From NCBI RefSeq assembly GCF_003113265.1, contig NZ_PUIV01000007.1, positions 62,001-126,000 of the forward strand: a stretch of DNA of 64,000 nt, given 5' to 3'. Positions 8,550 through 64,000 of the stretch are shown piece after piece (within the stretch, counting starts at the first letter, position 1; each line of letters begins with the position of its first letter). The notes under the pieces were generated by a model. That model searched no databases. It was given only the letters and a program-made list of their open reading frames with translations, and was not told the origin of the DNA. The DNA is from Methylosinus sporium. Lineage in GTDB: Bacteria > Pseudomonadota > Alphaproteobacteria > Rhizobiales > Beijerinckiaceae. The position numbers were made by a program, and so were the translations under genes.

Positions 8550-10043
8550 TCAAAAGGTTTCTGAAATCTCTATGCTTTCTGCTTTCACGCGGGCCTGTGC
8601 GCGGCGCTCCGGCGCGCGCCACAGCTCTTCCGCATAGCCGCGCCTTATCCAGCTGCGGAAGCGGTAGCCGCGCGTGAAGCCGTAATCGGGCAACAGCGCT
8701 CCGACCACCGACTGCCGGCCGGAGGAGCCGACCTGGCGATGGGCCTCCTGATTGACGCTGAGCAGCAATGGCGCCCAGCGGCCGATGCGCGCGAAATAGC
8801 CGCGGCAGACGGCGTCGCCCATTTCGGGAAAGGAGTCGCAATTGACGATGATGTCGCTGTCGACGACGGCGTCGTCGTCGATCTCCGGCGCCAGGACGAG
8901 ATCGACGCCGGCGCCGCGCGAGGGCTCCGACGGATCGCGGAATTGCACGGGAATCTCGGGCGCGGCGCGGCGCAGCGCGAAGAATTGCACGGCGGCCACG
9001 GTCGGCAGATCGACGATCGTGTAATGGCGCGCGCCGGCGAGCAGCGCGTAGCGCGCCGCCTTGCCGAAGCCGCCGCCGATCTCGCAAATCTTCGGCCGCG
9101 CGACGCCGCTCGCCTCCATCGCGCGCAGCGCCAGATAGAGCGCCTGAATATCGCGGCCGTGCAGAACGCTCTCGCCGATCTCGAGGCCATAGAGCCCGTC
9201 GAAGACCGCCGGCGGCGCGATGGAGAAGCCGAGCGCCGCCTCGATCTCGGCGACCAGCCGTTGCGATGTGGCGACCAGCGTCTCGCCCTCATAATCCTGC
9301 TCGGCGCATTCCACCCGCGCGACGCCCAAATATTGCGCGAGCGAGGCCAGCATGTCGTGAAAGGGCGCGACGGCGGCGCGGCGGCCCTGTGGCGAGGCGG
9401 CGAGAAAATCCCGATAGGCCTCCTCGCCCTGCTCGATCCCGGTGGCGGCCGCGGATTTCTGCACGCCGACGAGGCATTGCGCGAGCGCTCGCGGATCGCC
9501 GCCGTCCAAAAGGCCGAGCAGCGGCCGATGACGCCGCGAGACGATATCGGTCCACATGGCGCCGCCGCCGCCCAATCGCTGCGTGCCGCGGCCATGGACA
9601 TGCAGCCTCCAGGCGCTCTGCAATTCCGCGGCGATTTCGCTATCGCGCGCATCGGCCTGGCGCAGCGACAGCGTCGGCTCGAGCCGCGGCAGGCCGCGCC
9701 GCGTGGAGTTGATCAGCTCCTCGGCGAAGCTCGGCCGGCTCGCGCCTTCGAGCAGCCAGAAATCCTCTCCGCGCACGCGCGCGGCGAGCGTCTCATCGGG
9801 AAAATCCCCGTCCGGCAAATCGAAATGAAAGCCGTAGCGGCCGTCGCCGAATCCGGCCCGCGCCAGATCGTCGCGCGGCCGCTCGGCGCGGGCGCGCCCG
9901 ATGACCGCGCCGGCGGAGCATATCTCGACCTCGAAGCGATCGCTCGGCCGCAGGCGGTCGTAGACCCAGCCGGAAACGCGGCCGCCGCTCCTCTGATCGA
10001 TATAGCCGAAGAGCTCCCGCCGTCGCCTGCGCGTGAAGAACAT
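8550..10043 (-). CDS. Putative sugar O-methyltransferase
   Basis: A 497-residue two-part protein. Residues about 15-85 (GRVSGWVYDRLRPSDRFEVE to GFGDGRYGFHFDLP) form a small beta domain of the kind fused to many alphaproteobacterial polysaccharide enzymes. The rest resembles the putative sugar O-methyltransferase family, with a methyltransferase-like core KICEIGGGFGKAARYA and YTIVDLPTVAAVQ. It probably methylates a sugar of a surface glycan. The ATG at 10043 has AGGAG eight bases upstream, which settles the start. It is downstream of another methyltransferase (37-base gap) and a glycosyltransferase on the same strand, so it is likely the third gene of that operon. Substrate unknown. Confidence 0.75.
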   Translation of the reverse strand: MFFTRRRRRELFGYIDQRSGGRVSGWVYDRLRPSDRFEVEICSAGAVIGRARAERPRDDLARAGFGDGRYGFHFDLPDGDFPDETLAARVRGEDFWLLEGASRPSFAEELINSTRRGLPRLEPTLSLRQADARDSEIAAELQSAWRLHVHGRGTQRLGGGGAMWTDIVSRRHRPLLGLLDGGDPRALAQCLVGVQKSAAATGIEQGEEAYRDFLAASPQGRRAAVAPFHDMLASLAQYLGVARVECAEQDYEGETLVATSQRLVAEIEAALGFSIAPPAVFDGLYGLEIGESVLHGRDIQALYLALRAMEASGVARPKICEIGGGFGKAARYALLAGARHYTIVDLPTVAAVQFFALRRAAPEIPVQFRDPSEPSRGAGVDLVLAPEIDDDAVVDSDIIVNCDSFPEMGDAVCRGYFARIGRWAPLLLSVNQEAHRQVGSSGRQSVVGALLPDYGFTRGYRFRSWIRRGYAEELWRAPERRAQARVKAESIEISETF

Positions 10044-58137: not shown

Positions 58138-58881
58138 CTATTTCTGATCCAGATAATCGAACACGACCTCGCCGAGAGCGAGCGTGAGATCGGCGGTGAA
58201 ATGCGTTGCCGAGATGATTTCCCGCACCGGAAGGCGGGCGACGTCGCAGGCGACATGCGGATGCAGCGCGAGCGCCGCCGGCGAAGCCCAGGCGCCTTTC
58301 ATCACGACGTCCGTCATATGGTAGCGCACCAGCTCCAGCACGCGCGGCGAGCCGTCGACATGGGGGATGATCTTCAAAAGAAAATTCGGTTGCTGGATCG
58401 CCTCGGCGATCGGAGCCGTCTCCAATATGCGATGCTTGTAGCCGACCGACGCCTCGACGCAGAGCGCCGGGCCATATTTCAGCGTGCAGAGAATGACGTC
58501 GCCGTCATGCTCGATCTTGGGCGAGGCGAGCTTTTTGGGAAAGCCCCACAGCTCGCGGCCGCCGGCGATGGGCGCGTCATCGTCGAGATACATGGCGTGG
58601 ACATAGGCGCCCTTCTGCCCGTTGAAGCGCACCGGGATCACCTGGCCGCTCTCGGTATAGTCGCCGAAGCCGGTCGAATCCGGCATTCGGATGAACTCAT
58701 ATTTGACGATGGGCTCGTCCACCTCGAGCGGCTCCGGCACGACGGCGCGCAGCGCGTCGATGTCGGTGCGATAGGCGATGACGATGAATTCGCGATCATA
58801 GAAACGATAGGGTCCGCGCGGATAGGCGGGATTGGTCAGCGGCATCGCAAATGCCGTCTCGAGCACCTCGTCGATCTTCAT
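58138..58881 (-). CDS. adc: Acetoacetate decarboxylase
   Basis: Adc, converting acetoacetate to acetone and CO2 through a lysine Schiff base. It is 247 residues. The catalytic lysine pair lies in [13 protein letters not shown]. The ATG at 58881 follows AGGAG. It is close to acetoacetyl-CoA synthetase on the same strand, with only a damaged VOC gene between. With bdhA nearby, three genes of this window act on acetoacetate. Acetone formation in this organism is an inference. Confidence 0.95.
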
Positions 58882-59360: not shown

Positions 59361-61322
59361 CTATCGGCCTTTGTCCGCGAGCTGCGGAAGATTTGCGAAA
59401 AACGCGAGCGATTCGGGATTGGAGAGCGCGCCGACATTCTTCACCGGCCGTCCATGCACGATCTCCTTCACCGCGAGCTCGACGAGCTTGCCGGAGCGCG
59501 TATGCGGCAGATCGGGCGCCGCGATGATGACCGACGGCACATGGCGCGGCGACGCTTTCTCGAACAATTCGCGCTTGATCCGCGCGGCGAGCGCGTCGTC
59601 CAGCTCGGCGCTTTCGCGTGTCTTCACGAACAGCACGATGCGCGTCGTGCCTTCCCACTCTTGATCGATGGCGAGCGATTCGAGAATCTCCGGCAGGCGC
59701 TCGACGATATTGTAGATATCCGCCGTGCCGATGCGCACGCCTTGCGGATTGAGCGTCGCGTCCGAGCGGCCATGGATGAGGAATCCCTTGTGCTCCGTCT
59801 CTGTGGCGAAATCGCCATGGCGCCAAATGCCGGGATGTTCGGAAAAGTAAGCCTTGCGATATTTCTCGCCGTCGGCGTCGTTCCAGAAATAGATCGGCAT
59901 GGAGGGGAAGGGCTGCGTGCAGACGAGCTCGCCCTCATGGCCGGTGACGCGCTTGCCCTCCTCGTCCCACACTTGCACGGCCATGCCGAGGCCCGCGCAT
60001 TGAATCTCGCCGCGATAGACCGGGCTCCATGGATTGCCGCCGACGAAGCAGGAGACGATGTCGGTGCCGCCGCTTATCGAGGCGAGCTGCACATCTTCCT
60101 TGAAGTCGCGATAGACATAATCGAAGCTGTCGGGCAGCAGCGGCGAGCCGGTGGAGGCAATGCTGCGCACGGCGGAGAGATCATGGCTCTCGCGCGGCTT
60201 CAGCCCTTGCTTCTCGATCTGCTTCAGATAGCCGGCCGAGGTGCCGAAGAAGGTCGCCTTCTCCTCGGCGGCGAAGTCGAGAAGGATCGCGCCATCCTCG
60301 CCGGCGTTGAAGAAGCCGTCATAGAGCAGCAGCGTCGCCTCGCTGGCGAGGCCGCTCGCCAGCCAGTTCCACATCATCCAGCCGGTGGAGGTGGCGTAGA
60401 AGAAGCGGTCGCCGGGCTTGATGTCGCTTTGTAGGCGATGCTCCTTCAAATGCTGCAGCAGCGTTCCGCCGGCGCCATGCACGATGCATTTGGGCGCGCC
60501 CGTCGTGCCGGAGGAGAACATGATGTAGAGCGGATGGTCGAAAGGCAGGCGCTCATAGCGCAGCGCCGCGCCCTCATGCGCGACGATCGCTTGCGGCCAG
60601 AGCTGCGCGTCGGCGAGTCCGTCGAGCGAGGGCGATGCGCTCGTGTAAGGGACCAGCAGGATTTTCTGCACGCTCGGCAGCTTGCCGGCGATCTCGCGAA
60701 TATTATCGGCGCGGTCGAGCGTTTTGCCCTTGTAGAAATAGCCGTTCACCGCGATGAGGATGCGCGGCGCGATCTGGCCGAAGCGATCGAGCACGCTCTG
60801 CACGCCGAACTCCGGCGCGCAGGAGGACCAGACGGCGCCGAGCGAAGCGGCCGCCAACATGCCGATGATCGCCTCCGGCCCATTGTGGATATAGGCGGCG
60901 ATGCGGTCGCCGGGCGCGACGCCCTGCGCGCGGAAATAAGCGGCGAGCGCGGCCGCCTCAGCGACGATCTCGCCGAAGGAGAGCCGGCGCTCGACCTTGT
61001 CCTCGCCCCGGAAGACGATGGCCTCGGTCTCGGCTGGGCGCGGGCGCAGCAGATTTTCCGCGAAATTCAGCCGGGCGTCGGGAAACCAGCGCGCGCCGGG
61101 CATTTTGTCGGCGTCGATGAGAATGCGCTCGCCCTTCTCGCCGATAACGCCGCAGAAGTCCCAGATCGCCGACCAGAATTGCGGCGAGCTCGCGAGGCTC
61201 CAGCAGTAGAGCCCGTCATAGTCGAAGCTTTCGGCGAAGGGCTTCGTCGCTTCGATGGATCGCGCGAAGCGGGTAAGAATGGCGTTATTCTGGCGATCGA
61301 AATCTGGCTTCCAGATCGGCAT
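59361..61322 (-). CDS. aacS: Acetoacetyl-CoA synthetase
   Basis: Acetoacetate-CoA ligase, 653 residues, activating acetoacetate with ATP and CoA. AMP-binding motif MFSSGTTGAPKCIVHG, SISGGTDIVSCFVGG (characteristic of this ligase), HGDFATETEHKGFLIHGRSDATLNPQG and a C-terminal lysine in RSGKLVELAVK. The ATG at 61322 gives the family start MPIWKPDFDRQN. It lies upstream of the VOC gene and adc in one direction, so adc-aacS may be one ketone-body unit. Seven bases separate its stop from the VOC start. Confidence 0.96.
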   Translation of the reverse strand: MPIWKPDFDRQNNAILTRFARSIEATKPFAESFDYDGLYCWSLASSPQFWSAIWDFCGVIGEKGERILIDADKMPGARWFPDARLNFAENLLRPRPAETEAIVFRGEDKVERRLSFGEIVAEAAALAAYFRAQGVAPGDRIAAYIHNGPEAIIGMLAAASLGAVWSSCAPEFGVQSVLDRFGQIAPRILIAVNGYFYKGKTLDRADNIREIAGKLPSVQKILLVPYTSASPSLDGLADAQLWPQAIVAHEGAALRYERLPFDHPLYIMFSSGTTGAPKCIVHGAGGTLLQHLKEHRLQSDIKPGDRFFYATSTGWMMWNWLASGLASEATLLLYDGFFNAGEDGAILLDFAAEEKATFFGTSAGYLKQIEKQGLKPRESHDLSAVRSIASTGSPLLPDSFDYVYRDFKEDVQLASISGGTDIVSCFVGGNPWSPVYRGEIQCAGLGMAVQVWDEEGKRVTGHEGELVCTQPFPSMPIYFWNDADGEKYRKAYFSEHPGIWRHGDFATETEHKGFLIHGRSDATLNPQGVRIGTADIYNIVERLPEILESLAIDQEWEGTTRIVLFVKTRESAELDDALAARIKRELFEKASPRHVPSVIIAAPDLPHTRSGKLVELAVKEIVHGRPVKNVGALSNPESLAFFANLPQLADKGR

Positions 61323-61563
61323 CGACTTGTCCTTCGGGCGCGCGGCGTGGAGCGTCCGCCAATTCATAGAGGCTCGCAAATCCGCGCGATAGGGGCTCGG
61401 CCTGCGTATTTTGGGCCGGGGGCCGGCGTGACGACAAGCTTTGGTTTCGGGCTTCGGCGCCGCTATGTTGGGCGCCGCGGCGGCTCATTCGGCATTTATT
61501 CATCTTGGCCGCGGCATTGTTCGAGCGCGTCGCCCCGACGCCTCGGCATGTAGAGGACAGATC

Positions 61564-61707
61564 ATGACCAAAAAGTTGATCGCGACTTTGGCTCTCGGCC
61601 TCGCCGTCGCCCTGGCTCCGCTGGCCGCCTCGGCCCATCCGCGGCCCCATCGGCACCACCATCAACATCATCACCATCACCACCACCATCATCATCACCA
61701 CCGTTGA
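61564..61707 (+). CDS. Secreted poly-histidine peptide
   Basis: A 47-residue precursor. The signal peptide is MTKKLIATLALGLAVALAPL, cleaved after ASA. The mature part is about 23 residues: HPRPHRHHHQ, a run of twelve His, then Arg; 17 of 23 are His. Such a peptide would bind Ni, Co, Zn or Cu in the periplasm. AGGAC precedes the ATG at 61564. No metal-transport gene is adjacent. The His codons alternate CAT and CAC, so the tract is not a simple triplet slippage run. It is too short to compare with a family. Confidence 0.7.
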   Translation: MTKKLIATLALGLAVALAPLAASAHPRPHRHHHQHHHHHHHHHHHHR

Positions 61708-61771
61708 CGATGGGCGACGCCGGGCCGCGCGCATTTTCGCGCCGCTCGGCGTCGGCGTTCATCACGCTTCG

Positions 61772-62134
61772 CTACTGCTGCGCTAGCGCCAATATGCGCG
61801 AGGTCAGCTCGTCCTGGTCATAGGGCTTGGCGAGGAAGGGCGCGCCGCAGAGCGGCTCCGGCAATTGCCGTTGCAGATAGCCCGACAAAACGAAGAAGGG
61901 CAGCTTTTTGGCGCGCAGCGCGTCGGCGACGCTGGCGCTGCTGGAGCCGCGCAGATTGGCGTCGAGGATCACGCCGTCTATCTCCTCGTCCTCGATCAGC
62001 TTCAACGCTTCGTCGACCGAGCTCGCGGTGCCGCCGATCTCATAACCGACCTCCTCGACGACGAAGCAGAGATCGGCCGCGATCGCCGGCTCGTCTTCGA
62101 CGACGAGAATGCGGATGGGTTCGTTACCGCTCAT
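61772..62134 (-). CDS. Single-domain response regulator
   Basis: A 120-residue receiver domain alone: RILVVEDEPAIAADL gives the acidic pocket, VILDANLRG the phosphoacceptor Asp, FVLSGYL the Thr/Ser position and FLAKPYD the lysine. No output domain, so it may act by phosphotransfer or protein binding. Its ATG directly abuts the stop of the HWE histidine kinase gene (no spacer), so they form one unit. Confidence 0.94.
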   Translation of the reverse strand: MSGNEPIRILVVEDEPAIAADLCFVVEEVGYEIGGTASSVDEALKLIEDEEIDGVILDANLRGSSSASVADALRAKKLPFFVLSGYLQRQLPEPLCGAPFLAKPYDQDELTSRILALAQQ

Positions 62135-64000
62135 CTAATCCTCTCCTTGCGCGGGCTCGATCACATTGTCGAGCGGCGCGCTCACCTTCCAGACGACGCC
62201 GCTCGGCGCATAATCGAGCGTCACCCGGCCGCCGAGCGCATGTTTGGCCATTTGCAGAATCACCATATGGCCGAAGCCGTGGCGCTTGGGCGCGACGACC
62301 GTCGGCCCGCCGCTCTCGCGCCATTCCATCTCGAAATGCGGCGCGCCGCCCTCGCTGCTCACGCCGAAGGCGATGCCGACCACGCCTTTGTCGTTGGAGA
62401 GCGCGCCATATTTGCCGGCGTTGGTGGCGAGCTCGTGCAGCGCCATGCCGATCGCCTGGCTCGCCGCCGGCTTCACCACCGTATCCGGCCCTTCGATACG
62501 AATGCGCGAGCCGAACAGATCGCGGAAGTGCGCGAGCTGCGAACGCGTCAGCGCGCGCAGCTCGACGCCGCGCCATTCGTTCTGCACCAGAAGATCATGG
62601 CTCGCGCCGAGCGCCGCTATGCGCTGGTCGAAATGCTGCGCGAAGGCGTGCGGAGAATCGCGCCGCGCCGTCTGTCGCGCTACGGCGCGCACGACGGTGA
62701 GGAGATTTTTGGCGCGATGCGTCACCTCGCGCAGCAGCAGCTCGACGCGCTCCTGCGCCTCCTTGCGCTCGGTGATGTCCTGAATCGTGCTGCGCAATCC
62801 GACGATGGCGCCGCGCTCGTCGCGCACCGCCTCGCCGCGAATGGTGACATGAATTGCGGCGCCGTCGGCGCGATGCGCGGGAAGATCGAACTCGAAGCCT
62901 TCGCCGGTGCGCAAGGTCTCGCGCGTCGCGGCGTCGAGCTTCTCCCAATCGCGCGGGGCGTAGAGCAGTCCCTTCTGCTCGGCGAAGCTCGGCGGCGGCG
63001 CATCGGGATCGAAGCCGAAGATGCGCGCGATATAGGGCGAGGCGCCGCCGCGATCGTCATGGCGGCCGCTCCAGCGCCAGCTGCCGATGCGGCCGAGCCG
63101 CTGCGCCTCGCGCAGCTCCGCCTCGGTGCGCCGCAGCGCCAGCTCGCGCACGCGGATCTCCTCGGCTCGCTCGCGCTCGGCCGCATAGGCGCGCGCGTCG
63201 GTCATGGAGGAGGCGATTTTGGCGGCGACGCGGTCGAGGAAATAGGCATAGGCCGCGTCGAGCCGCTTGAACGGATTGACGGCGGCGATCAGCGCCGCCG
63301 CGGCGCGGTCCTGGCCGAGCAGCACGATGGGAAACAGCACGGCCTCGTCCGCAGCGGCGGACCAGGGGCCGTAGGGCGTTTCCTCGCCGAAGCGCCCATC
63401 GACCGCGCGAATGGCGACGCGGCCGGGCGTGAGCCGCGCGACCTCGGCGAGACCCCAAATATCGCCGCGGACAGGATCGGGATCGCCGAGTCCGATGCGC
63501 AGCGGCGCGACGCGCCCGCCAGGACGCACGCCTGTCGCCGCCATCAGCTCCGCCTCGCCGCGGTCGTGGTCGAAGCGATAAATGGCCGAGAAGGGCAGGT
63601 CATAGCCATTCATGGCGAGCACGCTGGCGGCGAGGCGGCAGGCCTCGCCCTCGTCCTCGGCGCGGCTCAGCGCGGCGAGATCGCGCAAAGTGCGCAGCCG
63701 GCGCTCGCCGATCACCCGGTCGGTGGTCTCCACCACCGGGCAGAAGACGCCGCCCATGCCGCCGTCGTCGTCGTGGATCGGACTGTAGGAGAAGGTGAAA
63801 TAGCCCTCGTCGCGGCGGCCGTTGCGCATCATGTGCAGCTGCAGATCTTCCGAACGGGTCGGCAGTCCGTCGACGAGCGCGCCTTGCAGCATGGGGCCGA
63901 TCACGTCCCAGATTTCCGGCCACACCTCGCGCGCCGGCCGGCCGAGCGCGCGCGGATGCTTGTCGGCCAGCAGGCTGTGATAGGCGTCGTTATAGAGAAG
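62135..64000 (-). CDS. PAS/GAF-containing HWE histidine kinase (N-terminus outside window)
   Basis: A sensor kinase of at least 620 residues; the frame is open to the window edge and the visible start (LLYNDAYHSLLADKHPRALG) is already inside a PAS domain. It then has PAS (GYFTFSYSPIHDDDGG), GAF-like (about residues 110-260), a coiled coil, a second PAS-PAC (GRIGSWRW to STIQDITERKEAQ) and an HWE kinase core: phosphoacceptor His in REVTHRAKNLL, HELATNAGKYGALS and the WRE of MEWRESGGP. No membrane segment is visible. Partner of the response regulator that follows. Confidence 0.93.
   Translation of the reverse strand, partial: LLYNDAYHSLLADKHPRALGRPAREVWPEIWDVIGPMLQGALVDGLPTRSEDLQLHMMRNGRRDEGYFTFSYSPIHDDDGGMGGVFCPVVETTDRVIGERRLRTLRDLAALSRAEDEGEACRLAASVLAMNGYDLPFSAIYRFDHDRGEAELMAATGVRPGGRVAPLRIGLGDPDPVRGDIWGLAEVARLTPGRVAIRAVDGRFGEETPYGPWSAAADEAVLFPIVLLGQDRAAAALIAAVNPFKRLDAAYAYFLDRVAAKIASSMTDARAYAAERERAEEIRVRELALRRTEAELREAQRLGRIGSWRWSGRHDDRGGASPYIARIFGFDPDAPPPSFAEQKGLLYAPRDWEKLDAATRETLRTGEGFEFDLPAHRADGAAIHVTIRGEAVRDERGAIVGLRSTIQDITERKEAQERVELLLREVTHRAKNLLTVVRAVARQTARRDSPHAFAQHFDQRIAALGASHDLLVQNEWRGVELRALTRSQLAHFRDLFGSRIRIEGPDTVVKPAASQAIGMALHELATNAGKYGALSNDKGVVGIAFGVSSEGGAPHFEMEWRESGGPTVVAPKRHGFGHMVILQMAKHALGGRVTLDYAPSGVVWKVSAPLDNVIEPAQGED

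Follow-up and report, generated by a model that had tools for sequence, protein, structure and literature searches.

A conserved gene for a predicted exported histidine-rich peptide in a genus of alphaproteobacterial methanotrophs

We have found that a short open reading frame of the window (the whole 64 kb stretch of DNA that we have analyzed) is a real, conserved gene. Its product would be a small exported peptide whose mature part consists mainly of histidine, and which may well act as a buffer of transition metals in the cell envelope. Natural free-standing exported poly-His peptides have been little studied: the cases which can be compared, as far as the accessible parts of their sources describe them, are intracellular, form part of a larger protein, or are animal peptides. 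If methane oxidisers, which depend on copper, have such a peptide throughout a genus, it would offer a simple and testable element of metal handling in their envelope. The combination of synteny and codon evidence used here is also a way of telling a low-complexity mini-gene from junk.

The gene and its predicted product

The open reading frame is found on the forward strand at 61564-61707, stop codon included, and its 47 amino acid translation is MTKKLIATLALGLAVALAPLAASAHPRPHRHHHQHHHHHHHHHHHHR. Its first 24 residues (61564-61635) have the features of a Sec-type signal peptide, also seen in the orthologue alignment: a K-K n-region, then a hydrophobic core, with a hydropathy maximum of 2.62 over a 10-residue span, and ASA ahead of the predicted cut, which we have placed between ASA and HP by the -3,-1 rule for signal-peptide cleavage. 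Cysteine, the mark of lipoproteins, and twin arginine are both absent from the signal peptide sequence. These features point to export and to cleavage after ASA.

The predicted mature chain has 23 amino acids, 17 of which are His (74%). It would begin with His-Pro (61636-61641), identical in the nine orthologues described below, and its longest run has 12 His codons (61666-61701). The first His is coded by CAT, and the codons which follow the first His-Pro are evenly mixed, 8 CAC and 8 CAT. A preliminary description of this DNA had proposed a signal peptide and a mature chain of about 23 residues with 17 His, 12 of them consecutive, coded by alternating codons; we have reproduced every one of these figures from the sequence of the open reading frame, as well as the use of both codons. 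In other putative exported proteins, the residue after AxA is His in 0/9 cases, a small and crude baseline.

The purine-rich AGAGGA at 61552-61557, 7-12 bases 5' of the ATG, is a likely ribosome-binding site. Two other frames cover the tract, an antisense one (61285-61734, reverse strand) and an upstream-extended one (61441-61707, forward strand). We consider both of them mechanical, because the common feature of the orthologues is the leader which starts at 61564.

Upstream of the gene, a possible promoter, TTGGTT-17-TATGTT (61441-61469, forward strand), may be recognized by eye inside a block conserved in orthologues, but the absence of any site in a promoter consensus scan, at the stricter of its thresholds, argues against this reading. 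Between the possible promoter and the start, the orthologue alignment includes a conserved 22-base element, TTCATCTTGGCCGCGGCATTGT (61499-61520, forward strand). The genome contains one exact match to it and two matches with 2 mismatches; with so few copies, it is not detectable as a regulon motif in this genome. The divergent intergenic region also contains GGCGCC-N9-GGCGCC around TATGTT (61456-61476), kept in orthologues. Inspection of the alignment by eye has not revealed any known metal-regulator site upstream of the gene.

The gene is flanked on one side by a divergent acetoacetate-CoA ligase-like AMP-binding enzyme (59361-61322, reverse strand; Pfam AMP-binding and ACAS_N). This open reading frame is listed to 61379, and its conserved start is probably the ATG at 61322. 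On the other side come a convergent single-domain response regulator (61772-62134, reverse strand) and then an HWE histidine kinase (62135-63925, reverse strand), both assigned by Pfam. Since the next gene is convergent, the peptide gene is probably monocistronic. According to the Pfam scan of its neighbours, the adjoining genes include no metal transporter, metal sensor or metalloenzyme. An acetoacetate decarboxylase-family gene (58138-58881, reverse strand) lies close to the ligase-like gene, the two being separated by a small frame of the glyoxalase family. The decarboxylase and ligase-like genes possibly form an acetoacetate module beside the peptide gene.

Distribution of the gene

To find orthologues in ten genomes of the genus, we used the neighbouring response regulator and a CAY pattern as queries, and then read the matching stretches. 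A search for syntenic orthologues had been suggested in the preliminary description, and it was successful: the peptide gene is found in nine genomes (G000, G001, G002, G003, G004, G005, G006, G008 and G009), divergent from the same ligase-like gene in all of them. The response regulator and the HWE kinase are tail to tail with it in seven of these nine; in G008 and G009 the pair is located elsewhere. The remaining genome, G007 (2.8 Mb, 99% complete), has no His-rich frame beside its ligase (69% identical), no close response regulator, no CAY run and no match to a profile of the nine orthologues.

The pMMO/AMO subunit A family is found above cut-off in all ten genus genomes and in none of 14 control genomes. 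Together with the nearest named relative of the response regulator, which belongs to Methylocystaceae, this identifies the genus as an alphaproteobacterial methanotroph, perhaps Methylosinus. G007 keeps pMMO as well as the ligase without having the peptide gene, which therefore is not needed for pMMO.

Outside the genus, the nine-orthologue profile allowed us to search related genomes. At E 1e-3, it matches 17 of 149 genomes of the family. Five of them belong to the genus and have the orthologue, the 12 others have lower scores and often correspond to a different His-tract protein. Closer reading covered all of these matches except L169, L171 and L172. The closest look-alikes read are two short exported poly-His peptides from genus g18 of the same family (L161, L166), while L162 and L163 are of more mixed composition. 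No ligase, regulator or kinase was detected in these four loci (tblastn, 1e-8), and we have seen no metal genes near the look-alikes of G096, G065, G069 and G149 in neighbour lists inspected by eye. At the order level, at least six of 397 genomes match at 1e-5, the window genome included; this count is a lower bound, with 17 candidates scored per genome. The five other matches (L174-L178) correspond to longer proteins or to proteins of a different type, among which L175 is the most similar.

The ligase has a match at 1e-20 in 12 of 60 family genomes, and the ligase locus contains a comparable exported poly-His frame in 0/10 genomes outside the genus; two frames with scattered His in L197 were judged to be due to chance. 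A search for the response regulator among named relatives only gave distant homologues, the best one in a Methylocystaceae MAG (58% identity), and a His-rich frame is absent from its locus. The peptide orthologue is thus essentially genus-restricted.

Selection on the leader and on the histidine tract

According to a first-order Markov model based on the dinucleotides of the window itself, 12 consecutive CAY codons have a probability of 5.7e-20 per position. For the 3.79 Mb genome, both strands included, this corresponds to about 4e-13 expected runs, so the tract is not explained by chance. The peptide gene is in fact the only His-rich frame (>=7 His per 20 residues) in both strands of the whole window.

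Purifying selection acts on the signal peptide. The 24-codon stretch which runs from KK to HP has a pN/pS between 0 and 0.51 in the 36 pairs of orthologues; the value is 0 in six pairs, and the median of the other 30 is 0.215. If the first His is excluded, the eight orthologues with a poly-His tail have 66 CAC and 70 CAT codons in it altogether, and from the first HHH onwards the tract is interrupted by only two other codons, one for Gln in G000 and one for Gly in G008. The third codon position is free while the first two are held as CA, so slippage alone is not a sufficient explanation. The preliminary description had considered the tract to be under protein-level selection or old, and both the constrained leader and this codon pattern agree with it.

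The length of the tract does slip, ranging from 12 to 19 His among orthologues. For example, the run has 15 His in G002 and 13 in G005, and the order of CAC and CAT is not the same, despite a synonymous difference of 5% in the leader. The most diverged orthologue is that of G003, whose tract is made of HHG/HHGG units and whose mature chain has 23 His among 43 residues. His density has thus been kept, rather than the homopolymer. The mature chains of the nine orthologues have 19-43 residues, including 15-23 His, and the residues which follow His-Pro vary. His-Pro is the only part outside the His tract to be identical in 9/9 orthologues; a requirement of the signal peptidase could be an alternative cause of this invariance.

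The preliminary description had named His codons varying as in a slipping repeat as an argument against its reading. Such variation is found for the number and order of codons, as G002 and G005 differ in both, but not for the first two codon positions. The gene might also be a nearly neutral remnant, in which the exported leader is conserved and the tail, a slipping CAY repeat, drifts and has no function itself. The differences between close species and the lack of a copy in G007 fit this explanation, which has difficulty with the CA almost always kept next to a 66:70 mixture at position three, with the frame and stop intact in all nine orthologues, and with the His retained by G003 without a homopolymer. 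We consider it unlikely.

Possible function

The interpretation which we favour, with slightly better than even confidence, is a disordered exported peptide which buffers transition metals in the envelope with low specificity; the preliminary description had likewise suggested a possible periplasmic metal buffer. Export by the Sec system and cleavage would release a free, intrinsically disordered peptide, either into the periplasm or to the exterior, and the metals bound there would be Cu(II), Zn(II) and Ni(II). Disorder of the mature chain is suggested by its composition and metal binding by the chemistry of poly-His, while we infer the periplasmic location and the buffering role. This reading is supported by conservation in nine of ten genomes, the constrained leader, the number of His kept and the HHG form found in G003, and also by the short exported poly-His look-alikes of another genus (L161, L166), which are unlinked. 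Against it, no metal gene adjoins the peptide gene, whose constant neighbour codes for an acyl-CoA ligase, the length of the tract is unstable, and the gene is missing from G007, which has pMMO.

Copper would be the most attractive metal in a methanotroph with pMMO, but no feature of the locus points to copper or to any other metal. In a copper-specific version of the periplasmic peptide, the exposed N-terminal His-Pro would chelate Cu(II) through the free amine and the imidazole of His, as in histidine-brace proteins, and the poly-His tail would be a reservoir which hands copper on. The idea is based on the chelation of copper by N-terminal His in the histidine brace, as outlined in the available part of PMC10952591, and we regard it as an unlikely one.

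The role of His in the envelope might have nothing to do with metals: it could be proton buffering, or the binding of a polyanion such as LPS, exopolysaccharide or polyphosphate. Such bulk chemistry would suit a lone unstructured chain whose tail conserves only its His density. Nevertheless, no acid-stress or polysaccharide genes are found among the scanned neighbours, and pH buffering by a 23-residue peptide would demand a very high abundance, which makes this explanation rather improbable. A secreted antimicrobial or membrane-active peptide similar to histatins, active when its His are protonated or metal-loaded, seems to us decidedly improbable. The peptide is indeed small, exported, genus-restricted and cationic at acid pH, and it has a sub-threshold Pfam match to the YxzE putative bacteriocin family (E 0.028, 15.8 bits, cut-off 40). 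This match, far below the cut-off, covers the leader and the low-complexity tract, no recognizable immunity or maturation gene adjoins the peptide gene, the signal peptide is an ordinary Sec one and the constant neighbour is metabolic. Finally, a run of His codons within a short open reading frame might recall the leader peptide of a his operon attenuator, which senses histidine supply, but this is highly improbable: it is contradicted by the gene order, with a convergent gene and no same-strand gene following, there is no terminator-like hairpin in a scan of 61330-61800 and no Rfam match over 61000-62200, and attenuation needs no constrained signal peptide.

Other histidine-rich exported proteins

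The genus has a second, different exported His-rich protein (ARGHHHHGHHHH...), whose gene is directly downstream of an Nramp-family metal transporter gene on the same strand. This arrangement is found in the four loci checked (L002, L036, L037, L039). In the genome of the window, the pair is on contig C7 (L183:9287-9616 and L183:9758-11083, reverse strand), and it is also present in three related genomes (L036, L037, L039). The gene order suggests that the transporter and its His-rich partner possibly form a unit. Such proteins can accompany metal uptake, which is not evidence on the gene at 61564-61707.

Two other cases may be mentioned. Contig C21 of the same genome (L004, around 8685-8722) codes for a longer exported-looking protein whose Gly/Val-rich body is followed, at the end, by about 10 His in a row, as a natural His tag. 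In G009, an exported-looking protein (L043) has about 18 consecutive His within a Tyr/Gly-rich tail, and a similar protein is found in another genus (L165).

Comparison with known systems

Three of the nine orthologues were scanned with Pfam and NCBIfam profiles, and no family is found over its curated cut-off: the best NCBIfam match has 16.5 bits (cut-off 95), the best Pfam match 15.8 (cut-off 40). We have rejected the sub-threshold matches, which are driven by the signal peptide or by the His tract. This is the case of Csp1 (copper storage), ZrgA (zinc uptake), Metal_resist and DmeF, all of them far below their cut-offs, and none of whose domains are present. 'HHHH-motif protein', which we take to be a product name in use, does not correspond to any model among the NCBIfam matches and did not appear in our literature search. 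As far as titles and the beginning of abstracts indicate, none of the open-licence papers found by our search describes this peptide. Known methanotroph copper proteins include PmoD (PMC6189053, partial text); no protein of this kind is linked to the peptide gene.

According to the portions available of the papers cited, nickel and metal functions are over-represented among prokaryotic proteins with His-rich low-complexity regions, which is in favour of an envelope metal buffer, and free peptides with His runs in the venom of Atheris vipers bind Zn, Ni and Cu (PMC6821194). The venom peptides are animal and unrelated, similar to the HHG orthologue of G003 in composition only. The part available of a paper on nickel in cable bacteria deals with a cytoplasmic loop of RcnA (PMC11247825).

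Hpn of Helicobacter has 60 amino acids, 28 of them His, as well as Cys pairs; it sequesters nickel inside the cell, in intracellular storage and trafficking, and Hpn and Hpn-2 are lineage-specific and often missed by annotation (PMC4671568, partial text). Our peptide is also a very small protein with dense His, 17 of 23 mature residues, and the comparison concerns His content only. Hpn is described as intracellular, while a signal peptide is conserved in the nine orthologues, whose mature parts have no Cys. To our knowledge, Hpn has no export signal. A peptide which is predicted to be exported and has no Cys in its mature part does not belong to the Hpn family.

The periplasmic His-rich N-terminal domain of CopI is disordered, and in work with peptides its affinity was higher for Cu(II) than for Zn(II) (PMC13308877, partial text). 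This is a further argument for the metal reading. Our peptide, presumably periplasmic and disordered, resembles this domain. Nevertheless, CopI is described as a large cupredoxin-like protein, while the His chain is here the whole mature product. We have rejected membership of this family, in view of the 23 amino acid mature chain with no Pfam domain over cut-off. In summary, the peptide works at most like Hpn or like the His-rich part of CopI, and is a member of neither family.
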